Below are positions 1,388-32,463 of a DNA stretch of 33,070 nucleotides, piece by piece. Where the stretch lies: assembly GCA_005792285.1 (NCBI GenBank), contig SXSI01000002.1:1-33070 (forward strand), read 5' to 3'. The DNA comes from Bacteroidota bacterium. GTDB lineage: Bacteria > Bacteroidota > Ignavibacteria > UBA10030 > UBA8401. Position 1 is the stretch's first letter. Each line of letters begins with the position of its first letter. The notes under the pieces are model-generated. The model did no database searches and was not told the origin of the DNA. It saw nothing but the letters and a program-made list of their open reading frames with translations. The position numbers and the translations under genes were made by a program.

Positions 1388-2272
1388 ATGAGAAAAAAAT
1401 ATTTATTAATTATACAACTTTTATTATTTGGTCAACTTTATTCACAGATAAAAATAACCTCGCAAAGAGTTATTGCAGAAAAGGATAGTATTGAATTTGG
1501 ATATCCGATATTCTCAAAAGATGGAAAGCAAATTTATTTTACAACACTCGACTATAAAGATATTTGGCAATCAACAACCTTAAATCCCAAAAGAGTAGTT
1601 GAAGGAGAATTAATTGGATATGGCTTTTCAGTTTCTGATAATGGAAATTTAATTGCTTACCGTAAAACTACTTGGAATGGGAATTCAAGAATTCAGGAAA
1701 GTTTTGTAAAAGATATTTCCAAAAATAATACAAGATTAATTTCTTTTGGTGAAGAGTTACAATTACCAAAATTTGAATTATTACCAACTAAATTAAAAAC
1801 AGAATTTGGAATATTACAAAAATCAGCTTCAATAATTATAACAGGAATAGTTGATGAAAAAATTCAGATAATTGAAAATGGCAAATCAAAAATAATTGAT
1901 CCTATAAAAAATGGAAAATATATTTGGCCAAAATTATCTCCTGATAATAAATTTTTAATTGCTTATGAATTAGCAGAAGGGCTAATTATTTTTGATTTGA
2001 AGGGAAAGTTAATTTCAAAACTTGGATATTACGATGCACCTTCCTGGACGAAAGATGGAAAATGGATAATCTGCCATAAAGAAAAAAATGAAAATGATTC
2101 AATTGTTTCATCCGATTTATTTGCAATATCAGTCGATGGGAAAAAAGTAATTCAACTTACAAATACTGATCAAACAGAATTATATCCAGAAACATCTTTT
2201 ACGGTAAATGAAATCGTTTGTCATACAAAAAATGGTAAAATAATTCTGTTTAATTTTGGATTTAATGAATGA
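1388..2272 (+). CDS. Secreted TolB-like (PD40) beta-propeller protein
   Basis: 294 residues with a signal peptide (MRKK then a hydrophobic run, ending GQLYSQ). The body carries repeated WD40-like/PD40 blades of the TolB type: 'PIFSKDGKQIYFTT' near residue 45, 'GFSVSDNGNLIAYRK', 'WPKLSPDNKFLIAYE' near 180, 'PSWTKDGKWIICHK' near 220 and 'AISVDGKKVIQLTNT' near 250. Such propellers bind partners or ligands in the periplasm or at the surface and are not enzymes. The stop codon overlaps the start of the following amidase gene (ATGA, 2269-2272), so the two are probably translated together and may work together in the cell wall. No T9SS tail is present. The exact role is unknown. Confidence 0.75.
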   Translation: MRKKYLLIIQLLLFGQLYSQIKITSQRVIAEKDSIEFGYPIFSKDGKQIYFTTLDYKDIWQSTTLNPKRVVEGELIGYGFSVSDNGNLIAYRKTTWNGNSRIQESFVKDISKNNTRLISFGEELQLPKFELLPTKLKTEFGILQKSASIIITGIVDEKIQIIENGKSKIIDPIKNGKYIWPKLSPDNKFLIAYELAEGLIIFDLKGKLISKLGYYDAPSWTKDGKWIICHKEKNENDSIVSSDLFAISVDGKKVIQLTNTDQTELYPETSFTVNEIVCHTKNGKIILFNFGFNE

Positions 2273-3885
2273 AAATTCTATTCAAAGTATTAACTCTTAT
2301 TATTTTTGTAGTTATTCAAACTTTTGGCCAACGTCCGAACTTAAATGGATATAAATTTTGTATCGATCCCGGACATGGAGGAAATAATGCTGCAAACGAC
2401 AGAAGAATTGAACCCGATCCTGGAAATGTATTTTGGGAATCGGAAGGGAATTTTCAAAAAGCACTTGCATTAAAATCAATTCTCGAAGCTTGGGGAGCAA
2501 CTATATTTTTAACACGATACACAAATTATTATCCAAATGATGATGAGCCAAGTTTATCGGCAAGATCAACTGTAGCAAATTCAAATAATGTAAATTGGTT
2601 TCATTCAATCCATAGTAATGCAACTGGCGGAACTAATGCCGGAACTAATTATACTTTAATTCTTGTAAAAGAAAATATTACAACTCGTCAGGCAGAATTT
2701 CCTGAAGCTGTTACTATGAGTACAAAGATTTATAATCAAATTAGAAAAAGAAATCGAACTCAATCTTACGGTGTAAGGACTGATTATACATTTTATGGTG
2801 GAGCAACTGGCGGATTTAATCTTGGTGTTTTAAAAGGATTGCTGATGCCGGGACAATTATCCGAAGGATCATTCCATGATTACTCTCCAGAAACTCGCCG
2901 ATTGATAAATTTAGAATATTGCAGAATGGAAGCTTACGGAATTGCCGATGGTTTTTTGGAATATTATGGAATTCCATTTGATACTTTAGCTGTTATTGCC
3001 GGAATTATTAAAAGTGAAGAAAGTACTCTACCACAAAATAATACTACTATTGAACTTTATCCGAAAAATAAAAAATATACAACTGATAATTTTAATAATG
3101 GATATTATTTGTTCGACTCACTTGCACATGGAAATTATTCTTTAATATTTGATTTAGGCGGTGGTAAAAAAGATACAGTTCCACAAACACTATTAAAATC
3201 TGATGTAAAATTTATAGATAGATTATTGCCATCATTGACTCCACCTTTTATTACATATAGCAGTCCACGAAATGGAGATTCAACTTTTAATGTTGCAAAT
3301 GTATTGGGAGTAATATTTTCAAAAGCTATGGATACAACTTCAGTTAAAAATGCATTCTCAATTTTGCCAAATGTTGATGGATCTACGCAATGGACAAATG
3401 TAAACAAGACTTTTATTTTTAAACCGAAAGAAAATTTAAAATATAGTACAAATTATATTTTTAAAATTGATTCCACTGCTTTGGCAATTAATGGTATTGC
3501 TTTAGATGGAAATGGTGACGGAAAGGGAGCTGATCCTTTTATTATAAAATTTAAAACAATGTCGCAACCAGATTTAATTAAGAATGATGAAAATATTCCG
3601 GATAAATTTAATTTAACACAAAACTATCCAAATCCATTTAACCCTACAACAACAATAAGATTTGGATTACCAAATGAGTCTTTTGTAAAACTAGAAATAT
3701 ATAATTCACTTGGTCAATTAGTACAAACATTGGTAAATGAAGTTCTTTCTGCACATTATTATGAAGTTAAATGGGAAGCAGGAAAGATTCCAACAGGATT
3801 ATACTTCTACAAAATAATTGCAACTGATATTAATAATCCAAATAATAAACTTATTCAAACTAAGAAAATGATGTTGGTTAAATAA
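2269..3885 (+). CDS. N-acetylmuramoyl-L-alanine amidase with T9SS sorting domain
   Basis: 538 residues. A signal peptide (1-21) is followed by an Amidase_3 domain (about 27-235) that would cut the lactyl-alanine amide bond of peptidoglycan. The zinc and catalytic residues can be placed: His36 in 'DPGHGG', Glu57 in 'ESEGNF', His115 in 'SIHSNA' and Glu199 in 'LSEGSF'. A carboxypeptidase-regulatory-like beta sandwich (about 240-315) and an SbsA/Big_5-type Ig domain (about 325-430, 'SPRNGDSTFNVANVLGVIFS') follow. The C-terminus is a type A T9SS sorting domain (about 452-538) with 'QNYPNPFNPTTTI' and the ending 'KKMMLVK'. The enzyme is therefore expected on the cell surface or outside rather than only in the periplasm. 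It overlaps the upstream propeller gene by 4 nt and ends just before a strong terminator. Confidence 0.9.
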   Translation: MKILFKVLTLIIFVVIQTFGQRPNLNGYKFCIDPGHGGNNAANDRRIEPDPGNVFWESEGNFQKALALKSILEAWGATIFLTRYTNYYPNDDEPSLSARSTVANSNNVNWFHSIHSNATGGTNAGTNYTLILVKENITTRQAEFPEAVTMSTKIYNQIRKRNRTQSYGVRTDYTFYGGATGGFNLGVLKGLLMPGQLSEGSFHDYSPETRRLINLEYCRMEAYGIADGFLEYYGIPFDTLAVIAGIIKSEESTLPQNNTTIELYPKNKKYTTDNFNNGYYLFDSLAHGNYSLIFDLGGGKKDTVPQTLLKSDVKFIDRLLPSLTPPFITYSSPRNGDSTFNVANVLGVIFSKAMDTTSVKNAFSILPNVDGSTQWTNVNKTFIFKPKENLKYSTNYIFKIDSTALAINGIALDGNGDGKGADPFIIKFKTMSQPDLIKNDENIPDKFNLTQNYPNPFNPTTTIRFGLPNESFVKLEIYNSLGQLVQTLVNEVLSAHYYEVKWEAGKIPTGLYFYKIIATDINNPNNKLIQTKKMMLVK

Positions 3886-19832: not shown

Positions 19833-21257
19833 TTATTTTATCAACATCATCGTCTTCGTCAAACTTTCACTTCCATTCGAAATTGTATAATAATAAGTTC
19901 CACTTGGAAATTGATTCATATCAATTTTTAATTCGTGAACTCCACGAGAAACTACTTCATTAACCGGAGTAAAAATTATTTGTCCCAAAATATTTTTAAT
20001 GGAGATATTTATTTTTGAATCATTTAACAGTGAAAATCTAATTGTAGTTTTCGGGTTAAATGGATTTGGGTAATTTTGATAAAGCTGAAAGTCGATTGGA
20101 ATTGCTGATTCAACTTTTTCAATTTTTGTAATTGTAGGAAGTATCCCATCATATTTCCATTTTTCAATTGTCCAGCCATAAAACGATTGCAAATATAAAT
20201 TTCCTTTTTCATCTATATCAACATCATAAGATGATGTATATCCCGAGACATTACCCGGAGTAATTCCCCCTGAACGTAAATTATATCCACCGGTTAATGT
20301 AAAATTCCATTTTGCTTGATCGATTGTATCGAGAACTGCTCCGGTTTTTGCGCTCAACATATAAATTCTACCATATTTATACCAACTTGAACCACCAAAT
20401 AATTTTGAACTCGCAACAAAAAGTAATCCTTTGCTGTCGTTGAATCCTAATCCCAAAACTGATGCTGTATCAATATTAGAGATTTGTAAAACTGTATCTT
20501 TGAGAGTGTTAAATTGAAAAGTATTTGTTTTTACATATCCAGTTGTTGGAGAACCATCGTATCTGTAAACATTTCTATTTTGATAATTACTGATAAATAA
20601 AACTTTTCCATTGTTGCTCGTTACAACTCCTTTATAAATCCCATCTGGTAAATCAATTGTTCTAATTGGGTTAGTTTTTCTATCTGCACTCCATTGATTT
20701 TTTGGTGGATATATTTTTAAGTCATTTGTTTTATTTAAACTTGTATCATTGAGAACATAAACATATCCATTTTTATCAACATGAATTGAAAAAATTCCAT
20801 TCGTTCCTGTTTCAGTTCTATAATCAACAGATTCAATTGTATCTTTAAGTGCAAAGACAAGTATGTTATGGTTCTCATCATTATTGGCAACATAAATTAA
20901 TGAATCAGGACCGATCGCAACTTGCCATGCATTTAGCATTGAAACTTCATCAAAACCAGAGCCCCATTTTTTGAAAATGCCAAGGGTTGAAGGATTATAA
21001 CCATAATCCATTTTACGACCTTTAGCAGAATCGGCATTTAAATAAGGAACTAAAAAGGATAAAGAATTTCTTCTAGTTACAAGTGCTATAAAAGTATTTT
21101 CTTTTAAAACAGCAACTCCTACAGTTTGATCTCCAGTACCATTTGATTCATCATCATAAGTGGCATAAACTTCTTTCCATTTTGAATTCCACTGAGAATT
21201 AGTTTCTGAGGGGGTTAAAACTAAAAATAGAACAAAAATTAAAAATAGTTTTTTCAT
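19833..21257 (-). CDS. Secreted propeller-like protein with T9SS sorting domain
   Basis: 474 residues from the ATG at 21255-21257. An upstream ATG at 21290 adds 11 residues, but an AGGAA ribosome site about 9 nt before 21257 and the signal peptide MKKLFLIFVLFLV favour the shorter form. The body (about 30-385) is made of repeated strand motifs such as 'WQVAIGPDSLIYVANND', 'IHVDKNGYVYVLND' and 'VDIDEKGNLYLQSF', an NHL/SMP-30-like propeller pattern. The C-terminal 85 residues are a type A sorting domain with 'YQNYPNPFNPKTTIRF' and the ending 'SLTKTMMLIK'. It is therefore expected to be exported by T9SS and surface-attached. No catalytic motif is visible. It diverges from the TonB-dependent receptor gene. 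Confidence 0.8.
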   Translation of the reverse strand: MKKLFLIFVLFLVLTPSETNSQWNSKWKEVYATYDDESNGTGDQTVGVAVLKENTFIALVTRRNSLSFLVPYLNADSAKGRKMDYGYNPSTLGIFKKWGSGFDEVSMLNAWQVAIGPDSLIYVANNDENHNILVFALKDTIESVDYRTETGTNGIFSIHVDKNGYVYVLNDTSLNKTNDLKIYPPKNQWSADRKTNPIRTIDLPDGIYKGVVTSNNGKVLFISNYQNRNVYRYDGSPTTGYVKTNTFQFNTLKDTVLQISNIDTASVLGLGFNDSKGLLFVASSKLFGGSSWYKYGRIYMLSAKTGAVLDTIDQAKWNFTLTGGYNLRSGGITPGNVSGYTSSYDVDIDEKGNLYLQSFYGWTIEKWKYDGILPTITKIEKVESAIPIDFQLYQNYPNPFNPKTTIRFSLLNDSKINISIKNILGQIIFTPVNEVVSRGVHELKIDMNQFPSGTYYYTISNGSESLTKTMMLIK

Positions 21258-21298
21258 AATTAAAATTCCTTTTGTATTAAAAATATTCATTTTCTATA

Positions 21299-21354: not shown

Positions 21355-24282
21355 ATGAATTTAAGAAAATTTATTAAAGAAATCCTTAAAAAATTATCGC
21401 CGGTATTTCTTGTTTGCATTTTTACTTTTCAAGTTTATGCAGGTGTTACAGGAAAAATTGTAGGTAAAATTGTTTCCGATAAAAATAACGAGCCACTTGT
21501 TTCCGCAATAATTCGTGTTGATGGAACTAATCTTGGTACAGTTACTGATGTTGATGGAAATTATGTAATTCTTAATGTCCCACCAAATACTTATACTTTA
21601 ACAATTTCAATAATAGGTTATCAGCAAGTAAAAGTTACAAATTTAAAAGTTTCTGCAGATTATACATCAATTCAAAATGTAACGATGAAAGAGTCAACTG
21701 TTGAATTATCTGAAGTAATTGTACAAAGTCAGCGTCCGCTTATAAAACAAGATCAAACAAATCCTGTTGTTGCAATTTCTGCGGAAGATTTTGAAACACT
21801 TCCTATTAATAGTGTTGCAGAAGTTATCGGTTTGCAAGCTGGAATTGTTGTTGGTGATGGTGGAGGAATTCATGTTCGTGGAGGACGAAGTAATGAAATT
21901 TCTTATTCGTTAAATGGTGTCTCATTAAATAATCCATACAACAATCAAAGTAGTGTTGATATTGCAACAAATGCATTGCAGGAAGTTTCAATTTCAACTG
22001 GAACTTTTAGTGCTGAATATGGAAATGCGTTAAGTGGAATTGTTAATTATGTAACTCGTGAAGGTTCAGATAAATATAATGGAAGCATTCGAACTTTAAC
22101 TGGCGATTATGTTAGTTCTAATAAAGATATTTATCCACATATAGATAAAATTGATCCATTAAATAAACAAAGAGTTGAACTTACTTTTGGTGGTCCATTA
22201 TTTATTGACGGATTAAAATTTTACACTTCATCAGTTTATAGAAATGATAATGGTTGGCTTTATGGTTCACGATTGTATAATCCTGAAGATTTTTATGCTT
22301 ATGCTTCAGATTTAAATTGGCAGGAAGTAAAATATGATTCTTTAGGAATCCCATTAAGAGATGCCGGTGGAAATTTTGTTTATCACACAGATCCGCGAAA
22401 AGGAAATTTAAGCGATCCATTTTATTTTAATCCAATTGCAAATGATACTTCTGATAAAAAAGGATTACCAACTGGTGATGGTGCTTTACTTCCACTTAAT
22501 TGGTTTACAAGTTGGAATTGGCAGGGAAATCTAAGTTATAACTTCAGCCCGACAGTAAAATTAAAATATGAAATGATTGCCGATAAAGGTGAAAGTCAAG
22601 ATGCATTTTATTATTCCTATCGTTACAATCCAAATGGAAGACCAACAAATTATTCAACTTCATTAATTCAAACTTTTGATTTTACTCATACACTTTCCAA
22701 TGAAATGTTTTATACACTAAAAGGTTCATTGGCGAACTCAACTGATAAAACTTATTATCGCGAAAGTATTGATGACCCTGATTATTTGCCAGGATTTTAT
22801 CAAACTTCACTACCATCAACAAGTTTTCTAACTGGTGGAACTTCTCTCGGAAGAACGTTTTTAAAATCTTCATCTTTAGGTTTAAAGTTTGATCTCGTAG
22901 CTCAATCAGGAAGTCACGAAATAAAAACAGGATTTGAATTACGAAAACATAATCTTGAACTTGAAAGTTATACTCTTCAATTTGTCGATATAACTAATCC
23001 AACAAAAGTTATTAATAATTTTCAAGACTTATATAACGACAGTATAAAATATAAAGCTAAAATTCCTGATGTTGCTTCTGGATATACTTATTATAAACGA
23101 CAACCAATTCAAATCTCCGGATATATTCAAGACAAGCTAGAATTTTGGAAATCACTAATTTTAAATGGCGGAATAAGATTTGAATACGAAGATCCTGCAG
23201 CAAAATATAATTCGAATTTAAGTGAAGCGCTTACAATGAAAGATACTTTATTTCTTGTAAAAGATTTGGTTGATACAAAACCAAAAATAAGTTTCAGCCC
23301 GAGATTGAGTATTGCATATCCAATTACTGATCAAGGTGTGATTAGATTTTCATACGGACATTTCTATCAGTTTGGAAATTTATCCTCGGTTTATACAAAT
23401 CCAAATTACAGAGCACCAGATGGAGTTCGACCGATTTTTGGAAATCCAAATGTTAAACCACAACGAAGTGTTCAGTACGAGATTGGACTTCAACAAGCAT
23501 TAACTTCTGATATTCGACTTGAAGTTGTTGGTTTTCAAAAAGATGTTCGAGATTATATTTTCAGACAAATTGTAATTACTGCAAAAGGGGATTTAAGTTA
23601 CGAAGTTTTAACAAACCTTGATTATGCTAATACTCGCGGAATTACAATTTCACTTTTCCAAAGAAGAATTGCAGGAAGTAATTTTAATTCGACTGTCGAT
23701 TATACTTTTTCAATTGCTGAAGGAAACAGAACTGAACCAAGAGAGGATTTCTTTTATAGCGAAAAGTCTGGTAAAAGCGCTGAAACATTTTTAGTTCCAT
23801 TAAGTTTCGATCGCACACATACATTAAATTCAACTTTTTCTTATACCGAAACGGATGATTATTCTGTAAGCACAATTGTCAGACTACAATCTGGTTCGCC
23901 ATACACACCTTCAATTCCTGCTAGTCTTTCACTTCAACAAACTCAGTTTATTCAAAATAGTGCAAATAAACCATTTCAATATACTGTAGATCTGAAAGCT
24001 GAGAAAACAATTAAGTATCTCGGATATAGAATAAAAGTTTTAACTCAAATCGATAATATATTTGATACCCAAAATGAAGTTGATGTTTATTCCAACAGTG
24101 GAAGAGCTTTGTACAATGCAGATGTTGTTGCAAATCCAACTCAGTTTAATCAAATCACAAGTCGCATAAATAAAGGTCATGCTGGTTTAATTCCACTTGA
24201 AGCAATTACGAATTATTATATCGATCCAATAAATGTTAGTCGTCCTCGTTTAGTCAGATTTGGATTTATGTTATACTTTTAA
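21355..24282 (+). CDS. TonB-dependent receptor with CarboxypepD_reg N-terminus
   Basis: 975 residues. A signal peptide (to about 30) is followed by a carboxypeptidase-regulatory-like domain (about 33-118: 'GKIVGKIVSDKNNEPLVSA', 'GTVTDVDGNYVILNVPP'). The plug domain (about 120-235) has 'GIHVRGGRSNEISYSLNGV' and 'ISTGTFSAEYGNALSGIVNY'. A 22-strand-type barrel follows, ending in '...PRLVRFGFMLYF' with a terminal aromatic. TonB/ExbBD-driven uptake or assembly across the outer membrane is the expected role. There is no SusD homologue next to it. Instead it is followed after 15 nt by a 1190-residue secreted protein and then a PorV-like protein. No canonical TonB box is evident by eye. Confidence 0.92.
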   Translation: MNLRKFIKEILKKLSPVFLVCIFTFQVYAGVTGKIVGKIVSDKNNEPLVSAIIRVDGTNLGTVTDVDGNYVILNVPPNTYTLTISIIGYQQVKVTNLKVSADYTSIQNVTMKESTVELSEVIVQSQRPLIKQDQTNPVVAISAEDFETLPINSVAEVIGLQAGIVVGDGGGIHVRGGRSNEISYSLNGVSLNNPYNNQSSVDIATNALQEVSISTGTFSAEYGNALSGIVNYVTREGSDKYNGSIRTLTGDYVSSNKDIYPHIDKIDPLNKQRVELTFGGPLFIDGLKFYTSSVYRNDNGWLYGSRLYNPEDFYAYASDLNWQEVKYDSLGIPLRDAGGNFVYHTDPRKGNLSDPFYFNPIANDTSDKKGLPTGDGALLPLNWFTSWNWQGNLSYNFSPTVKLKYEMIADKGESQDAFYYSYRYNPNGRPTNYSTSLIQTFDFTHTLSNEMFYTLKGSLANSTDKTYYRESIDDPDYLPGFYQTSLPSTSFLTGGTSLGRTFLKSSSLGLKFDLVAQSGSHEIKTGFELRKHNLELESYTLQFVDITNPTKVINNFQDLYNDSIKYKAKIPDVASGYTYYKRQPIQISGYIQDKLEFWKSLILNGGIRFEYEDPAAKYNSNLSEALTMKDTLFLVKDLVDTKPKISFSPRLSIAYPITDQGVIRFSYGHFYQFGNLSSVYTNPNYRAPDGVRPIFGNPNVKPQRSVQYEIGLQQALTSDIRLEVVGFQKDVRDYIFRQIVITAKGDLSYEVLTNLDYANTRGITISLFQRRIAGSNFNSTVDYTFSIAEGNRTEPREDFFYSEKSGKSAETFLVPLSFDRTHTLNSTFSYTETDDYSVSTIVRLQSGSPYTPSIPASLSLQQTQFIQNSANKPFQYTVDLKAEKTIKYLGYRIKVLTQIDNIFDTQNEVDVYSNSGRALYNADVVANPTQFNQITSRINKGHAGLIPLEAITNYYIDPINVSRPRLVRFGFMLYF

Positions 24283-24297
24283 TTAAAAAATTAGTTT

Positions 24298-27200
24298 ATG
24301 AAAATAAAAATATTTTTAGTTTTCTTAATTTCTACTTTGTTAATTAATTCTCAGTCGAATAAAAAAATTAGTTTTGAAACAACTGATGCAAAAGGATTAA
24401 CTCCTTCTGAATTACATCAATATGAATTATCAAGAAGAGAATTTAATTTACGCTTACGTAAATCAATTGGATATCGATCAGAAATAAAAAGTTTGGTTAT
24501 TCAGGGAAATAAAATTAAAACAATTCTTTATAATACTGGTTCAATAAGTCGGCCAGGAATTTCAGGAAATGTATTAGATTTAGTTTGGAATGGCCTTGGA
24601 TATGGTTATGAATTTGGCCCACTTGTCGGAGCAAAAGTACCGAAAGCAAAACGTGAGACAGTTGATTCTATAAAAATAGTTACTGAAGGATTTGATTCTC
24701 CATCTGATGGCGAATATGGTACGGATGGTTCAAAATGGGGTTGGTTGCCAAAAATTGGTTATTCAGCAACGGGACAACCTGATGTTGCAAGTTGGGGAGC
24801 TCGAGCCAAAGTTGGAAACGATTTAAGACTTCGTCCACCATCATGGCCGGAAAGTTGGTACAATTCCGGATTAAATCAATATGTCTATCCATCTTTTCTT
24901 GGTGGAAATTCTACAGTTCCTGATGAAGAATTATATTATGTAGTTGATGACTACACAAAAAAAGATTGGGAATATTATCCTTTTGCTGATGATTCAACAA
25001 AAAGAGGACTTGGTTTAAATTTAGAAGTTCGGACTTTTCAATTTTCAAATCCACTTGCTGAAGATATTATATTTTTAGTCTATACTGCGGAAAATTCTAG
25101 TCCTAAAACTTTACCAAAAGTTTATTTCGGAATGTTTGGCGATCCACACGTTGGTGGAGATAGAAATTATTCTGACGATGCTGCATCTTTTATTCCTTCA
25201 AGAGAAGGAACGGTTTTTAAAGATGGCATCGATCTTACAATTGTAAATGGAGTTCTCACTTCACAAAGAAGTAGAAATTTAGTTTATGCTTGGGATCCTG
25301 ATAGAAAAAGTGATATTCCAAATTTAGCTCCAGGTTATTTCGGATATAAATTTCTTGAAAGTCCAAATAATAGCACAGACAATCTTGATAACGATGACGA
25401 TGGAATAATTGATGAAGATCCATTTGGAGGAAGAGGAATTTATTTAAATCAAGCATTGGCTTATACTGGAATTGCCGATACCAATAAATATTCGAGAGTT
25501 TATGGAAAACCAAAAGCTCGATGGTCGGGCGATGAAGATGGAGATTGGGATCAAACTCGTGATGATGTTGGGGTTGATGGAATTTTAAATCCAAACGCAC
25601 CAGATTTTGGTGAAGGCAATGGAATGCCAGATCAATTAATTGGAAGTGATGGAACTTGGCAAGGATCTGAACCAAATTTTGGATTTAGAGATGTAAATGA
25701 ATCTGACCAAATTGGATTAAAAAGTTTTTGGGCTTTGGAATGGGGTGGAGCGAACAGACCAAAAAATGATATTTTGATGTACGATAAAATTTCTTCCGAT
25801 ACTTCGGATGTCAGTTTACTTTATCCGCCAATTCAAGGTGATAATATTTTTCTTTACGGTTCAGGTCCTTTTTCTTTAAAGCAAGGTGATCGTCAAAGAT
25901 TTTCAATTGCACTTTTAATGGGTTCCGATTTAAATGATCTACTTCTAAATTCTGAAATTGCGCAACGAGTTCTGGAAGCCAATTATCGATTTGCGCAACC
26001 ACCACCAAAACCAATTGTTCGTGCAGTTGCTGGAAATGGAAAAGTAACTTTGTATTGGAATACTGATTCCGAAAATGCTTTGGATCCATTAACAAATGAA
26101 AATGATTTTATGGGTTATAAAATTTATAGAAGTGAAGATTATACTTTTAGTGATGTATTTTCAATTACAGATGGCGCCGGTTATCCATTTTTAGGAAAAG
26201 CACTTTACGACGACAAAGCTCAGAAAGCTGCAATATTTCATAAACCATGGTCAGCAAATGAAAAGGCATTGTACGTAAATGGATATCATCCTTCAGAATA
26301 TCTTGGCCGTTCTGTAAAATATTATATGGGCGATCCAAATGATGTAAGTGGATTACGACATCAATATGTTGATTCAACTGTAACAAATGGAAAAACTTAT
26401 TTTTACGCAGTTATAGCTTTTGATAGGGGAGTTTATACTGACAGTTTAAAATTACCTCCAACTGAAACGCAATCAATTATTCAACGAGATGCAGTTACAC
26501 AAGAATTTAGATTTGATGTTAATACTGCAAAAGTAGTTCCTTCTGCATATGCATCAGATATTGTAAATCCATCGGACCAAATTAATTTAGGTACAACTTT
26601 ACTTCACACTTCTGGTGTTGCAACTGGAAAAGTAAAATTAGAAGTTTTGAATCCTGTATCATTGGGAAATAATTCTTATAAACTTGCATTCAGTAAAATT
26701 AAAAGTGGAAGTGATTCAGTTCTCAGTTATTCAATATTTCGCGAAACCCCTGTAGAAGAAAATTTTTTCGGAAAGGAAACTTTATTTACAAGTTTATTAT
26801 TTCCAAATATTGCCAAAACTTCTATCGTAATTAAAACTGAAAGCGGAACTATAATCGATCCATCAAAAATTACTGTCGACTCTATTGGTGGTTTGATAAA
26901 AGCAAAGTCAATGGGAATTCTTGTAAAAGGAATTAAATATATAATTCAATATCAATATTATCCTGTTGTAAATAGTAAAAATTTATCGGGACAAGATGCT
27001 AATTCATCGTTTGATGGAATGCGACTTTTTATAACTGATGATCCACTTGCACTAAACATAAAAGGAAGTGCTTTTAATATTCCTTCAACAAAAATAATTG
27101 GATCAATCAAAACCCCTACAATCGGAATTTCAAAACTTGCACCATTTGATATTCGTGTTACATTTAATAAAGTGGATACACTTGCGAATGGAAATTATTC

Positions 27201-27870
27201 TCAACCGGCAGATACAATGGGAACTCAATCTAATCCGAATGGGAAATTTACAATTACACCATTTAAAATTTCGAACGCAACTGATAATACTATAATAGGT
27301 TCATTTATTGGAAAAACCGGTACAACAATTACCAATTGGAAATTTGGAGAAAAAATAATTATTAGAACTCCTGCACCGTACGATGGTGGATCATCAACTG
27401 CAACTTTTATGGAGATTAATTTTAATCTTCCAAAAGATTCAATTGTAAATATTTCCGGTGGTGAATATTTTACAGGAAAAACTACAAGGCCATTCAGCCA
27501 AACCGAAAAATATAGTTTTAGTACAACAAAAGTTTCTTACGATGCAACGAAAATTCAAAATGGATTAAAAAATATTTATGTAGTTCCAAATCCATATGTA
27601 ATGTCAAGCCAGTTTGAACAACCTGCAAATAAGCCGGACTTAAGAGGAGATAGAGAATTGCAATTTAGAAGTCTTCCAAAAAAATGCACAATAAGAATTT
27701 ATACAATCACAGGTGAACTTGTAAAAATTTTAGAAAAAGATAATGAATCAGATTATTTAAGTTGGGATTTACTTTCTTCAGAAAGTGCAAGAACAAGTTA
27801 CGGTGTTTATATTTATCAAGTTGAATCTGATGGAGCTACAACAATTGGTAGATTTGGGGTGATCAAATGA
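24298..27870 (+). CDS. Large secreted multidomain protein with C-terminal FlgD/T9SS-like tail
   Basis: 1190 residues, function unknown. There is a signal peptide (1-19). The first 560 residues contain an Asp-rich 'DNLDNDDDGIIDEDPFGG' around 361-378, resembling a calcium-binding EF-hand/thrombospondin type 3 loop, and further acidic segments ('SGDEDGDWDQTRDDVGVDG') near 411-429. A fibronectin type III-like domain starts near 565 ('PPKPIVRAVAGNGKVTLYWN') and includes 'GYKIYRSEDYTFSD'. The last 85 residues ('IYVVPNPYVMSS', 'RIYTITGELVKILE', 'YGVYIYQVESDG') resemble the FlgD Ig-like/T9SS sorting fold, without the QNYPNPFNP motif. The preceding gene is the receptor, and the following PorV-like gene overlaps by 4 nt. 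A surface ligand-binding partner of the receptor is plausible but inferred. Confidence 0.8.
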   Translation: MKIKIFLVFLISTLLINSQSNKKISFETTDAKGLTPSELHQYELSRREFNLRLRKSIGYRSEIKSLVIQGNKIKTILYNTGSISRPGISGNVLDLVWNGLGYGYEFGPLVGAKVPKAKRETVDSIKIVTEGFDSPSDGEYGTDGSKWGWLPKIGYSATGQPDVASWGARAKVGNDLRLRPPSWPESWYNSGLNQYVYPSFLGGNSTVPDEELYYVVDDYTKKDWEYYPFADDSTKRGLGLNLEVRTFQFSNPLAEDIIFLVYTAENSSPKTLPKVYFGMFGDPHVGGDRNYSDDAASFIPSREGTVFKDGIDLTIVNGVLTSQRSRNLVYAWDPDRKSDIPNLAPGYFGYKFLESPNNSTDNLDNDDDGIIDEDPFGGRGIYLNQALAYTGIADTNKYSRVYGKPKARWSGDEDGDWDQTRDDVGVDGILNPNAPDFGEGNGMPDQLIGSDGTWQGSEPNFGFRDVNESDQIGLKSFWALEWGGANRPKNDILMYDKISSDTSDVSLLYPPIQGDNIFLYGSGPFSLKQGDRQRFSIALLMGSDLNDLLLNSEIAQRVLEANYRFAQPPPKPIVRAVAGNGKVTLYWNTDSENALDPLTNENDFMGYKIYRSEDYTFSDVFSITDGAGYPFLGKALYDDKAQKAAIFHKPWSANEKALYVNGYHPSEYLGRSVKYYMGDPNDVSGLRHQYVDSTVTNGKTYFYAVIAFDRGVYTDSLKLPPTETQSIIQRDAVTQEFRFDVNTAKVVPSAYASDIVNPSDQINLGTTLLHTSGVATGKVKLEVLNPVSLGNNSYKLAFSKIKSGSDSVLSYSIFRETPVEENFFGKETLFTSLLFPNIAKTSIVIKTESGTIIDPSKITVDSIGGLIKAKSMGILVKGIKYIIQYQYYPVVNSKNLSGQDANSSFDGMRLFITDDPLALNIKGSAFNIPSTKIIGSIKTPTIGISKLAPFDIRVTFNKVDTLANGNYSQPADTMGTQSNPNGKFTITPFKISNATDNTIIGSFIGKTGTTITNWKFGEKIIIRTPAPYDGGSSTATFMEINFNLPKDSIVNISGGEYFTGKTTRPFSQTEKYSFSTTKVSYDATKIQNGLKNIYVVPNPYVMSSQFEQPANKPDLRGDRELQFRSLPKKCTIRIYTITGELVKILEKDNESDYLSWDLLSSESARTSYGVYIYQVESDGATTIGRFGVIK

Positions 27871-28886
27871 GAAAAAGTTTAGCACTTTTATTTTTGATTA
27901 CATTTTCATTAAACGCACAGATTTTCCGTTCAACAACAAAAGTTGGAACAACTGCCGCACAGTTTTTAAAAATTGGTTCGAGCGCACGTGCAATTTCAAT
28001 GGGTAGTGCCGGAGTTGCAGTTCAAGGTGATGTTCATTCTTTATTTTGGAATCCAAGTTTAATTGTAAGTAATAATTCAACTGGTTCTTCTGCTTTCACA
28101 CATGCGGAATGGATTGCAGATGTGAATTATGATTATGCAGCTTCAATTTTAAATTTAGAAAACTTTGGATTAATTGGATTTTCATTTACATCACTTACAA
28201 CTCCGGAAGATATCGTTCGTACTGAAAATTATCCATTAGGTGATGGAAGAAAATGGAATGCCAAATCTCTCGCAATGAGTCTTTCTTACGCCCGATTATT
28301 AACAGGAAGTTTTGCAATAGGTGGCTCACTTAAATATGTTCAAGAAGGAATTTGGAATGAAAAAGCAACTGGATTTGCTTTTGATGTTGGTACAATTTAT
28401 ACAACTGAGTGGAATGGTTTGAGAATTGGTTCTTCAATATCAAACTTCGGAACAAAATTAAAATTAGAAGGTTCCGATCTTACATTTTCAAATGAACCGG
28501 GAAATATTACTAATCAAGGTCCTCAAAATGTAACTTCAAATTATCAAACAGATGCTTTCGATATGCCTCTGCTTTTTAGAGTTGGATTTGCAGTTGATTA
28601 TCTCTCATTTGAAAATTTAAATGCAACACTCGCATTGGATGCAATTCATTCGAACGACAATAATGAATATGTAAATATTGGAACTGAAATAAGTTACGAT
28701 AAAATGTTTTTCGGAAGAGTTGGTTACAAATCTTTATTTCTTGATGAATCAGAAGAAAGTTTAACTTGGGGAGTTGGAATAAATTATCCATTATCCGGAG
28801 CAATTTATATAACTTTGGATTATGCCTTTGCTGATTTTGGAAAGTTGAAAAACGTACACTACGTTACAGTAACAACTACATATTAA
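27867..28886 (+). CDS. PorV/PorQ family outer-membrane protein
   Basis: 339 residues with a signal peptide (ending SLNAQ). The N-terminal 'GTTAAQFLKIGSSARAISMGSAGVAVQGD', shortened here, lies about 27-55. It is followed by 'SLFWNPSLI', the hallmark of PorV/PorQ/UPF0164 barrels related to FadL. The rest is strand-rich and ends 'HYVTVTTTY'. PorV shuttles T9SS substrates from the translocon to the attachment complex; many paralogues accompany individual surface proteins. It overlaps the 1190-residue gene by 4 nt (ATGA), so it probably serves that protein. It could equally be a stand-alone transporter of the FadL type. Confidence 0.85.
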   Translation: MRKSLALLFLITFSLNAQIFRSTTKVGTTAAQFLKIGSSARAISMGSAGVAVQGDVHSLFWNPSLIVSNNSTGSSAFTHAEWIADVNYDYAASILNLENFGLIGFSFTSLTTPEDIVRTENYPLGDGRKWNAKSLAMSLSYARLLTGSFAIGGSLKYVQEGIWNEKATGFAFDVGTIYTTEWNGLRIGSSISNFGTKLKLEGSDLTFSNEPGNITNQGPQNVTSNYQTDAFDMPLLFRVGFAVDYLSFENLNATLALDAIHSNDNNEYVNIGTEISYDKMFFGRVGYKSLFLDESEESLTWGVGINYPLSGAIYITLDYAFADFGKLKNVHYVTVTTTY

Positions 28887-29107: not shown

Positions 29108-31525
29108 CTAATTAATTCCACTTCCGTAGGGAATCCATAAAGTTTTCGATTCACAATTATCGTGCTGAACTCGTTCTCCTTGCGTCTTCTGATTATCAAA
29201 CCAATCAATTTCAACTCCATAATTTACATTGACTCGTTTAACAGTTTGTGCGCAAAGTTTTTTAATTGAATAACATTCTTCTTCACTTCCCAAAAAATTT
29301 ATTCCATCAACATCCGAATGCTGAGAAAGAACAGAAGCGAGTTCCATTTTTTTACCAAATACAATTTGTATTGCACCAGTTGGAATATCTCCGGCACGAA
29401 TAATTTCTATAAATGGAGAAATTGAAATTGGATATTTTTCAGATGGGATTACTATTATAGAATTTCCATAAGCAAGTGCTGGTGCAATTCTAGAAATAAA
29501 TGCAAGAAATGGAAATTCATCTGGTATCGTAATTCCGATTACACCAATTGGTTCTCTCCAAGTTTGAACAATATGCGATCCATTAACTGATTCAAGTTCT
29601 CCGGTTAATTTATCAGCACGTCCACCCCAATACATTAATCGTTCAATACTTTTTTGAATTTCGAGATTTGTACTTTTAATATTTCTTCCTGTCATTGTGG
29701 AAAGTTTTTCACTTATTGCATTAAATCGTTCACTACATCTTTCTGCGAGAAACATTAAAAGTTGCATTCGGTTAAAAGTTGTCGTGGTTTTCCAGGAATC
29801 ATTTCCATTTCGAGCTGCTTCAACTGCATTTCGAATATCTTTTCTATTTCCAAGTGGAACTTCACCAAAAAATTTTCCAGAGAAACTATTTACTGAAACA
29901 CTCATTCCGCCATCTGGACGAACTTCTTTCCCACCGATAAAATTTTTAATTGTTTGATCAATAATTGGTTTAGAAATATTCTGTTTATTTTTCGATTGTT
30001 TATGAATTGCAGAAGATTTCCAATTTGAATTTATTGGTTTTAAATATTCAAACATTCCAATTCTGCCACCTTCTCTTCCAAATCCACTTTCTTTAAATCC
30101 ACCAAAAGGTGCCGAAGCATCAAACTGATTTGTGCAATTCCACCAAATAGTACCAGCCAAAAGTTTTTTAGAAATTTCATAACCAAGATCAACTTGTTGA
30201 GTCCAAATACTTGCAGCTAATCCAAAAGGGGAATTGTTTGCAATTTGAATTGCCTCATTTGGTGTTCGAAATTTAATTGCAACAAGTACCGGTCCAAAAA
30301 TTTCTTCACGTACTAAAATATTTGAGGGCGTTGTATTTTCAACTAAAGTTGGTGGATACCAATAGCCATCTTTCGGGCAAGCCCAATCGGGATTCCAAAT
30401 TTTTGCACCTTCGCTTTTTCCATGCGAAATCATATTTGTAATTTTTTGTAATTGCTGCGAAGAATTAATTGCTCCCATATCAACTGCTTTATCCATCGGA
30501 TCGCCGATAACTAACTTTGACATTCTCAATTTTAATTTCCGAATGAATTCAGAATAAATATTTTCCTGTAAAATTAAACGTGAACCTGCGCAACATACTT
30601 GTCCTTGATTAAAATAAATTCCATCAACAACACCTTCAATTACATCGTCGATTGAAGCAGAATCGAAAACAATGAAGGCAGATTTACCGCCAAGTTCCAT
30701 TGAAAGTTTTTTGTGCGTATTGCTTGTCGCAACCATTATTTTTTTACCAACTTCAGTAGAGCCAGTAAAAGCAATTTTTGCAACATCCGGATGATTAACT
30801 AAATACGAACCTGTTTCACCACCACCAGTAATAATATTTATAACTCCTTTTGGAAAATTAATTTGTTCGAGAAGTGAAGCAAAATATAATACAGAAAGGG
30901 GAGTGAATTCTGCCGGTTTTAGAATTACACTATTTCCCGCCGCAAGTGCTGGTGCAATTTTCCAAGCCAACATTAATAATGGAAAATTCCAGGGAATAAT
31001 TTGCCCGATTACGCCGAGTGAAGTGTAATTTGGAAAACTCTCTTGCCAAGTTGTTGCCCATCCTGCGTGATGATAAAAATGCCGGACAACGAGTGGAATG
31101 TCGATATCGCGAGTTTCACGAATTGGTTTGCCATTATCTAATGTTTCAATGATTGCAAGTTGACGACTATTTCTTTGGACAATTCTTGCAAGTGAATATA
31201 AATATTTTGACCTCTCAGTTGGAGGTATTTTTTGCCACGAACGAAATCCTTTTTGTGCAGATTTAACTGCATTATCAACATCAACTTTATTTGCCGATGC
31301 AACTGAAGAAAGTTTTTTACCATTTGCCGGATTTATTGTATCGAAGTATTTTTTGGAATTTGGTTCAACAAATTTTCCTCCAATAAACAAATTATATTTT
31401 GGTTGAATCAATTCGCCAATACTTTTTGGAATTGATTCTGGCGCAGGAGAAAGCTCATCCGGGTTAGTGTAATACCATTTTGCATCCATCGGTGAGTTTG
31501 GTGAATTATTTTTTTTCGTTTTCAT
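29108..31525 (-). CDS. ALDH16-like double-domain aldehyde dehydrogenase
   Basis: 805 residues. The first aldehyde dehydrogenase domain (about 37-505) is complete: 'IIPWNFPLLMLAWKIAPAL' with Asn180, 'FTGSTEVG' (253-260), Glu277 in 'MELGGKS', catalytic Cys311 in 'NQGQVCCAGSR', and 'EEIFGPVL'. The second part (about 525-790) repeats the N-terminal NAD-binding half ('IKNFIGGKEV', 'WREPIGVIGITIPDEFPFLAFISRIAPALAYGNS', shortened) and 'GINFLGSEE'. It ends without the glutamate and cysteine positions, so it is a pseudo-domain. This architecture fits the ALDH16 group. deoC lies 5 nt upstream; deoC yields acetaldehyde, a plausible substrate. NAD+ oxidation of acetaldehyde to acetate is inferred from this context. 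Confidence 0.9.
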   Translation of the reverse strand: MKTKKNNSPNSPMDAKWYYTNPDELSPAPESIPKSIGELIQPKYNLFIGGKFVEPNSKKYFDTINPANGKKLSSVASANKVDVDNAVKSAQKGFRSWQKIPPTERSKYLYSLARIVQRNSRQLAIIETLDNGKPIRETRDIDIPLVVRHFYHHAGWATTWQESFPNYTSLGVIGQIIPWNFPLLMLAWKIAPALAAGNSVILKPAEFTPLSVLYFASLLEQINFPKGVINIITGGGETGSYLVNHPDVAKIAFTGSTEVGKKIMVATSNTHKKLSMELGGKSAFIVFDSASIDDVIEGVVDGIYFNQGQVCCAGSRLILQENIYSEFIRKLKLRMSKLVIGDPMDKAVDMGAINSSQQLQKITNMISHGKSEGAKIWNPDWACPKDGYWYPPTLVENTTPSNILVREEIFGPVLVAIKFRTPNEAIQIANNSPFGLAASIWTQQVDLGYEISKKLLAGTIWWNCTNQFDASAPFGGFKESGFGREGGRIGMFEYLKPINSNWKSSAIHKQSKNKQNISKPIIDQTIKNFIGGKEVRPDGGMSVSVNSFSGKFFGEVPLGNRKDIRNAVEAARNGNDSWKTTTTFNRMQLLMFLAERCSERFNAISEKLSTMTGRNIKSTNLEIQKSIERLMYWGGRADKLTGELESVNGSHIVQTWREPIGVIGITIPDEFPFLAFISRIAPALAYGNSIIVIPSEKYPISISPFIEIIRAGDIPTGAIQIVFGKKMELASVLSQHSDVDGINFLGSEEECYSIKKLCAQTVKRVNVNYGVEIDWFDNQKTQGERVQHDNCESKTLWIPYGSGIN

Positions 31526-31530
31526 AATTG

Positions 31531-32463
31531 TTAAGAAATTGGATTGTATCTCGTTGAACCGTAACCACCGGTTGCAAAATGTTGTAATTGTCTTTCGATA
31601 TCAGAAAGTAAAGTACTTGCGCCTAATCTAAATAATTTTGGTGTGAGCCATTCTTCTCCTAATTCTTCGCGAATAATTGTAATCCATTTTAAAGCATCGG
31701 AAGCAGTTCTAATTCCACCGGCAGGTTTGAAACCAATTTTAATTCCGGTTCGATCATAAAAAGAACGAATTGCACGAATCATAATTAAGCCGACTGAAAA
31801 AGTTGCATTAATTGGTTCAAATCCGGTTGATGTTTTTATAAAATCTGCACCGGCTTGCATTGCAAGTTCACTTCCGCGCCAAACCATTTCCAAAGTTCCA
31901 AGTTGTCCAGTTCCTAAAATTACTTTCATATGGTTTTTGCCGCAAGCTTCTTTCATTAATTTTATTTCATTAAAGAATTCTGAATAACGATTTCCCAAAA
32001 GAAGTTCCCGATTTATTACAACATCAATTTCGTTTGCACCAAGTTCAATTGAAGTTCTGATTTGTGATATTCTATTTTTTAAACTCGTTTGTCCTGCAGG
32101 GAAGTCAGTTGAAACTGCTGCAATTGGAATTCCAGAATTTCTGAGAGATTCTTTTGCGTACGGAATCATTCTTTCATAAACACAAACTGCGCCAACATGG
32201 ATTTTAGAATCAAATCCAACTTGTTTTAAAATTTCTGAGCGAACTGGATTAATTGCTTTTTCGCAAAGTCGATGGACGTTAGTTTCAGTATCATCGGCTT
32301 GTAAAGTTGTGAGGTCAATTGATTCGATTGCGCGAATATAAAATGCAACTTGCGATCCTTGTTTAATTGCACGACGTGTGAACATTGATGCCAACCTTTG
32401 ACGAACTGCAGGAGTATTTACTTTTATATTTTTAAGTAATGTTAAATCTAAATTTTGATGCAT
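31531..32463 (-). CDS. deoC: Deoxyribose-phosphate aldolase, animal-like type
   Basis: 310 residues, longer than the roughly 220-260-residue common bacterial enzymes and similar in layout to animal DERA. It cleaves 2-deoxyribose 5-phosphate to acetaldehyde and glyceraldehyde 3-phosphate in deoxynucleoside breakdown. Seen: Asp147 in 'NEIDVVINR', the Schiff-base Lys210 in 'GADFIKTSTGF', Lys246 in 'IGFKPAGGIRT', and 'FRLGASTLLSDIERQ' near the end. 'GTGQLGT' (184-190) stands where E. coli has 'ETGEL'. It lies between the asparaginase-like gene (16 nt) and the aldehyde dehydrogenase gene (5 nt), so the three form an operon. Confidence 0.95.
   Translation of the reverse strand: MHQNLDLTLLKNIKVNTPAVRQRLASMFTRRAIKQGSQVAFYIRAIESIDLTTLQADDTETNVHRLCEKAINPVRSEILKQVGFDSKIHVGAVCVYERMIPYAKESLRNSGIPIAAVSTDFPAGQTSLKNRISQIRTSIELGANEIDVVINRELLLGNRYSEFFNEIKLMKEACGKNHMKVILGTGQLGTLEMVWRGSELAMQAGADFIKTSTGFEPINATFSVGLIMIRAIRSFYDRTGIKIGFKPAGGIRTASDALKWITIIREELGEEWLTPKLFRLGASTLLSDIERQLQHFATGGYGSTRYNPIS

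Follow-up and report, generated by a model that had tools for sequence, protein, structure and literature searches.

The described systems closest to the locus treated here include two from the type IX secretion system (T9SS), namely PorU and PorZ, which keep their C-terminal tails and for which PorV and PorQ serve as tethers (PMC5562754), and the type B cargo proteins, for which a dedicated barrel is encoded by the next gene (PMC12618676, PMC9143113). Another is the alginate locus of Rhodothermus marinus, where a TonB receptor, a T9SS type A sorting-domain protein, and a PorV/PorQ family protein stand in this order with alginate genes around them; its middle gene, of 2,181 nt, is listed among hypothetical genes, and the trio is not discussed (PMC9530828). 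We analyzed a stretch of 33,070 bases (the window), which is the entire contig C21 of a 1.68-Mb, 50-contig Bacteroidota genome, and in which three consecutive genes, all on the + strand, encode a 975-aa TonB-dependent receptor, a secreted surface protein of 1190 aa that we call LSP, and a barrel of the PorV family (339 aa). It is close to certain that this triplet is a conserved, co-evolving unit. We further propose, at slightly better than an even chance, that it is a module for uptake at the outer membrane, where LSP, exported by type IX secretion, anchored by the barrel, and probably glycan-binding, stands in the place of SusD.

The open reading frames (ORFs) agree with the original prediction for this DNA, which had described a packed layout of receptor, large secreted protein, and PorV-like barrel: the receptor and LSP genes are 15 nt apart, and the LSP and barrel genes overlap by 4 nt. 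The features are as follows.

21355..24282, + strand: TonB-dependent receptor, 975 aa, with a CarboxypepD_reg-like N-terminal domain, plug, and barrel (Pfam and the SusC/RagA model)
24298..27870, + strand: LSP, the 1190-aa secreted surface protein (ORF, Pfam, and predicted model)
24466..25992, + strand: LSP residues ~57-565, predicted galactose-mutarotase-like beta-supersandwich domain (structure comparison of the model)
25387..25416, + strand: LSP residues 364-373, Asp-rich loop D.D.DG..DE (sequence; invariant residues)
25531..25581, + strand: LSP residues 412-428, second conserved Asp-rich loop (invariant residues in the alignment)
25999..26433, + strand: LSP residues ~568-712, FN3-like domain with approximate borders (predicted models and Foldseek list)
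27571..27867, + strand: LSP residues 1092-1190, PorU/PorZ-like T9SS C-terminal domain (profile matches and covariation with the barrel)
27867..28886, + strand: PorV/PorQ-family outer-membrane barrel of FadL-type fold, 339 aa (NF033709 match and a relative's model)
28200..28244, + strand: barrel loop residues 112-126, holding the covarying residues 118 and 124 (covariation and alignment to the Flavobacterium johnsoniae PorV loop)

The genome holds five such packed triplets, namely the window copy and those on contigs C43, C33, C15, and C28. LSP was matched (E 0.001) in 121 of the 247 sampled genomes of the phylum, in 29 of which the best E was above 1e-20 and perhaps reflects single-domain matches; among the matches listed, merging gave 121 LSP genes, and 120 stretches were examined. 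Both partners were found in a first count at 109 of the 148 LSP-labelled ORFs of at least 500 aa, with many weak side matches or ORFs lost to pruning in the remainder. A recount of unpruned ORFs scoring at least 250 bits found a receptor upstream and a barrel downstream in 121/128, a figure that includes a few fragments counted beside the whole gene, since stretches with tandem modules overlap. The three-gene order, for which the original prediction had suggested searching across genomes, is thus nearly universal in the LSP family, and the opposite outcome it had considered, a family found mostly away from receptors, did not materialize. The seven ORFs that missed the recount comprise three cut by the stretch end, one rearranged locus, and three (L086, L156, and L157) with one partner not found.

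A scan of named genomes yielded 79 loci in Ignavibacteria, Rhodothermales, Calditrichota, KSB1, Neomarinimicrobiota, and others, the named relatives being mostly metagenome-assembled genomes of Bacteroidota, many of them Ignavibacteria. Under a strict rule, both partners were present at 69 of these loci; the ten misses consist of seven at contig ends, one (L199) with its receptor 501 nt off, and two (L245 and L247) with a broken LSP frame and the partners in place.

Protein distances among 110 triplets from 63 genomes correlated strongly for each pair of genes (receptor-LSP, 0.931; receptor-barrel, 0.888; LSP-barrel, 0.867). Two or more triplets are carried by 44 of these genomes, and swapping partners within genomes gave a correlation of at most 0.634; because none of 1000 swaps reached the observed value, the copies do not exchange partners.

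Two variant arrangements were seen alongside. At 86,000-98,000 of contig C43 (L013) lies a rearranged relative, which encodes, on one strand, an LSP-like protein of 709 aa, a T9SS-tail protein, a 556-aa probable lipoprotein, a receptor, and a PorV-family barrel. Two close relatives (G243:C59 and G093:C14; L059-L062) carry two tandem modules, the downstream one being of the window type.

The tail of LSP, described in the original prediction as FlgD/T9SS-like, ties the protein to type IX secretion through (i) its relation to the tails of PorU and PorZ, (ii) its covariation with the barrel, and (iii) the presence of SprA in every LSP-positive sampled genome. Among 24 members of the LSP family, the PorZ model matched in 13, the PorU model in 7, and the type A model in 4 (the last at E 0.01). 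The PorZ match in L060 covers residues 1095-1196 at 27.4 bits (cut-off 260), and the PorU model reaches 19.3 bits on the window LSP (cut-off 420); with matches confined to the tail and far under the cut-offs, LSP was rejected as a whole-protein PorU sortase or PorZ. A sequence search of the PDB with LSP likewise returned a PorZ tail as its sole match (E 0.099). SprA was found in 121/121 LSP-positive genomes and in 190/247 of the sampled genomes overall, an association weaker than it seems, as 19 of the 20 SprA-negative genomes listed belong to one family. The genome itself encodes SprA (1031 bits), PorQ (235 bits), and PorU (949 bits), the gene of the last being directly followed by that of PorV (280 bits); the four scores are all above cut-off. 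Besides this true PorU, a 1749-aa ORF on contig C6 (10,122-15,371; L272:8123-13372) has a PorU-like region of 219 bits (cut-off 420) and is a possible second, larger sortase relative.

Such a tail could also mark LSP as ordinary T9SS cargo, which the barrel would only shuttle to the PorU complex, the site of tail cleavage and of attachment or release of the protein; a small ligand would then be what the receptor imports, and the operon would reflect co-regulation only. Along with the kinship of the tail to T9SS tails and the true PorU and PorV in the genome, the end of LSP agrees with this: position 1185 is K/R in 167/169 sequences and position 1190 is K in 162/169, like the near-terminal lysine of type A tails (PMC10994853), and either position may be the counterpart of RemZ Lys1110. 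Plain type A cargo is nevertheless not supported, as the type A sorting model TIGR04183 gives the LSP tail 17.1 bits against a cut-off of 23, and the better-matching tails, those of PorU and PorZ, are retained ones. Moreover, each LSP has one dedicated barrel with which it diverges in a partner-specific manner, whereas all type A cargo is said to rely on one and the same PorV (PMC12618676). We regard ordinary cargo as unlikely; that LSP is exported by the T9SS and then held by a barrel of its own is likely.

That barrel was called PorV-like in the original prediction, and it passes the PorV/PorQ family model NF033709 at 190 bits (cut-off 90). It was rejected as a true PorV, PorQ, or PorV2 (76, 73, and 74 bits against cut-offs of 250, 220, and 325), and the other four module barrels of the genome likewise fall below these cut-offs. 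In a fused-chain model of the C-terminal half of LSP and the barrel of a relative (pTM 0.67), the barrel half is closest to PorV (8gl6_F/6h3i_F, Z 34). On contig C20 (10,641-13,975; L269), a protein of 517 aa, whose match to the LSP tail is weak (E 1e-5), is followed by two successive PorV-family barrels; this is a further tail-plus-barrel arrangement, here without a receptor.

Contact between the LSP tail and the barrel is predicted by covariation. We applied a blockwise mean-field analysis to 169 modules (the 110 triplets and 59 named ones; effective number 124), in which records recurring in both sets were down-weighted. The top LSP-barrel pair falls in the tail (LSP 1094-barrel 118, z 10.8) and ranked among the top five in 25/25 subsamples; the remaining nine LSP blocks gave a best z of 6.3-7.5 against the barrel, and permuted pairings gave 5.2 and 4.7. 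An aromatic residue at LSP 1094 is paired with R/K at barrel 118 in 85/85 cases, and a basic one with a non-R/K residue in 24/28. On the tree, LSP 1094 changed 21 times and barrel 118 changed 15 times, with 5 changes on a shared branch (P 0.0012). Barrel residues 118 and 112 align with R121 and F115 of F. johnsoniae PorV, respectively, the latter of which bonds to a lysine of the cargo C-terminal domain in a cryo-electron microscopy complex (PMC10994853), if, as we assume, the numbering of that paper agrees with the aligned sequence.

The body of LSP gave no match above cut-off in a Pfam search. The Asp-rich loops noted in the original prediction were found: the pattern D.D.DG..DE, which we take to be calcium-loop-like, is present in 101 of the 110 triplet LSPs, and D366 and E373 of the first loop, as well as D412, W417, D423, G425, D427, and G428 of the second, are invariant in 74 aligned rows. 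A predicted model of full-length LSP (pLDDT 84.7, pTM 0.80) was compared with known structures, and its Foldseek matches, once realigned, cover ~245-276 residues, mostly within 57-743, at a Z of 18-20 and a root-mean-square deviation of 3.0-3.7; models without a clear match typically give a Z of 7-8. The partners at this level are the N-terminal parts of GH94 phosphorylases, a GH116 glucosidase, and a glucodextranase, and two galactose mutarotase-like proteins align at Z 14.0. For the N-terminal half of LSP, the model thus predicts a supersandwich fold like that of glycan phosphorylases, which we take to be the galactose-mutarotase-like beta-supersandwich; the comparison chiefly informs residues up to ~740 and hardly covers the later ones. 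The FN3-like domain of the original prediction fared less evenly: the predicted model, on which it rests, drew fibronectin III chains among its Foldseek matches, but the Pfam search gave no match.

Same-strand neighbors, namely 83 upstream of a receptor and 85 downstream of a barrel (two of 87 were the next module's receptor and were dropped), are rich in T9SS tails and glycan-related domains, overlaps between matched families being left in these counts. Upstream, we found T9SS tails in 60, CBM9 in 28, FG-GAP in 22, and a LacI-type sensor in 7; downstream, T9SS tails in 34, Amidase_2 in 13, GH16 in 10, malectin in 10, CBM20 in 9, glucoamylase in 6, and CBM48 in 5. Among control genes (20 stretches from 20 of the same genomes), 4/100 had a T9SS tail, and no glycan family occurred among the 25 families listed of 141, each glycan family thus having at most 1 gene. 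An FG-GAP T9SS protein stands upstream of several window-like modules (L068 and L071-L074).

These neighborhoods bear on two further explanations. An uptake module might serve a non-glycan ligand, such as a peptide, a metal complex, or peptidoglycan fragments, with the supersandwich as a scaffold, as might be read from the downstream Amidase_2 genes, the M6 peptidase adjoining the C28 copy, the window copy with no glycan gene, and a fold that by itself reveals no ligand; the glycan-related domains near related modules and the published alginate locus point the other way, and we consider a non-glycan ligand improbable. The frequently adjacent T9SS-tail cargo genes, together with a tail nearest to those of PorU and PorZ, would also suit an LSP-barrel pair acting, by analogy with PorU-PorV or PorZ-PorQ, as an extra attachment or assembly complex that handles other T9SS cargo and to which the receptor is an accessory. 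This is very unlikely in our view, as the PorU and PorZ models match the LSP tail only, many diverged copies occur per genome, and the receptor is the constant partner.

In a Pfam search, the receptor showed CarboxypepD_reg_2, Plug, and TonB_dep_Rec domains. It was rejected as SusC/RagA (TIGR04056, 83.2 bits; cut-off 368.25), and a plain SusCD pair was rejected for the module, given a receptor under the SusC cut-off and no SusD at the locus. In a profile search of the whole genome, no SusD (PF07980) was found in the module or on the window contig, and the sole match lies on contig C15 (29.3 bits; cut-off 23.1). There, at ~31,000-43,000 (L275, L012), what by eye appears to be a receptor C-terminus is followed by a SusD-like lipoprotein ~3 kb before the C15 triplet, so that a SusC/SusD-like pair and a receptor-LSP-barrel module stand nearly side by side. 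Because the genome has this pair, the missing SusD is a property of the locus, not of the genome. The description "without SusD" in the original prediction accordingly holds for the module but not for the genome, and its picture of a T9SS-type partner used where Bacteroidetes use SusD is not supported as a replacement.

The proposed mechanism runs as follows. A signal peptide would take LSP to the periplasm, and its C-terminal domain would route it across the outer membrane via the T9SS translocon; the PorV-family barrel from the next gene would collect LSP by its tail and keep holding it, a hold modelled on PorV-PorU, PorQ-PorZ, and the SprF-like barrels with type B adhesins. The polymer bound by the body of LSP (beta-supersandwich plus immunoglobulin (Ig)/FN3-like domains) would most likely be a glycan, or the products of its breakdown; LSP would present it to the receptor for import powered by TonB. 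In this way, the LSP-barrel pair would fill the role that the SusD lipoprotein has for SusC. The uncut tail, the contact with the receptor, and the class of ligand are what we infer here. The machine is hardly "self-contained," as originally predicted, given its presumed need for the T9SS translocon and the additional cargo genes of many relatives. The idea of surface uptake gains from the glycan-related neighbors of related modules and from the predicted fold of a glycan-enzyme type but finds no such neighbor beside the window copy.

Several observations weigh against this proposal. The window copy has no glycosidase or glycan gene beside the module, and its genome also has the SusC/SusD-like pair. 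The supersandwich gives a glycan-enzyme context, yet a common fold, here a predicted one, is no proof of binding. Covariation between LSP and the receptor had no standout pair (best z 8.8 over 50 block pairs). On the barrel side, the second pair, LSP 1125-barrel 124 (z 8.2), was among the top five in just 7/25 subsamples and lies within the noise, which reached 8.8 between LSP and receptor and 8.1 between receptor and barrel, and just 5 of the 15 barrel-118 changes share a branch with an LSP change. LSP as the glycan-presenting partner of the receptor is nonetheless our best reading, held with roughly equal belief and doubt. More tentatively, and somewhat short of an even chance, the modules may represent a second class of glycan importer at the outer membrane, one that is independent of SusD and spread over several phyla, in which a receptor works with a T9SS-exported supersandwich lid on a PorV-like barrel of its own.

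Other genes of the window were noted in passing. Upstream of the receptor gene, a divergent gene (19833-21290, - strand), whose start is 64 nt from that of the receptor gene, encodes a protein of 485 aa that ends in a type A sorting tail; the two genes may share a promoter region. Downstream of the module, on the opposite strand (29108-32463, - strand), a gene for an 805-aa aldehyde-dehydrogenase-like protein, by eye of two halves with the second degenerate, adjoins a DeoC/LacD-type aldolase gene, possibly for deoxyribose use. An N-acetylmuramoyl-L-alanine amidase with a Big_5 domain and a T9SS tail is encoded at 2269-3885 (+ strand) and is probably an exported peptidoglycan amidase.

For paddy-soil genomes, a 2023 study reports that Ignavibacteriales have few susCD genes in their carbohydrate gene clusters and Ca. 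Kapabacteria none (PMC10576277), and the module is a candidate substitute for susCD in lineages like these. If the proposal is true, it would explain polymer import in lineages with hardly any susCD in such clusters, join TonB-dependent uptake and type IX secretion, which are usually separate fields, and assign a function to the PorV-like barrels outside PorV and PorQ, which form a large family. The module is testable in cultured relatives.

In the wider literature, from which most subscription papers lay outside our search, we found no trace of the trio beyond the R. marinus alginate locus, whose middle gene is shorter than that of LSP and whose likeness is one of printed gene order only. Like SusC/SusD (RagA/RagB), the module has a TonB-dependent receptor with a CarboxypepD_reg-like domain beside the gene for a surface-exposed partner, sometimes near secreted glycan enzymes; unlike them, its receptor scores 83 against 368 bits, and the partner is a T9SS-tail protein with its own barrel rather than a SusD lipoprotein. 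With PorU-PorV and PorZ-PorQ it shares a related tail, a PorV/PorQ-family barrel in the next gene, and a presumed retention of the tail, whereas it differs from them in (i) the body of LSP, which is a predicted supersandwich plus Ig/FN3-like domains, (ii) its many copies, (iii) its constant receptor, and (iv) a barrel that falls short of the cut-offs for PorV and PorQ. A parallel is offered by type B cargo with PorP/SprF-like barrels, where a dedicated downstream FadL-family barrel acts as shuttle and anchor (PMC12618676, PMC9143113) and from which the module is set apart by a PorV-family barrel, a PorU/PorZ-like tail, and a TonB-dependent receptor as its third member.

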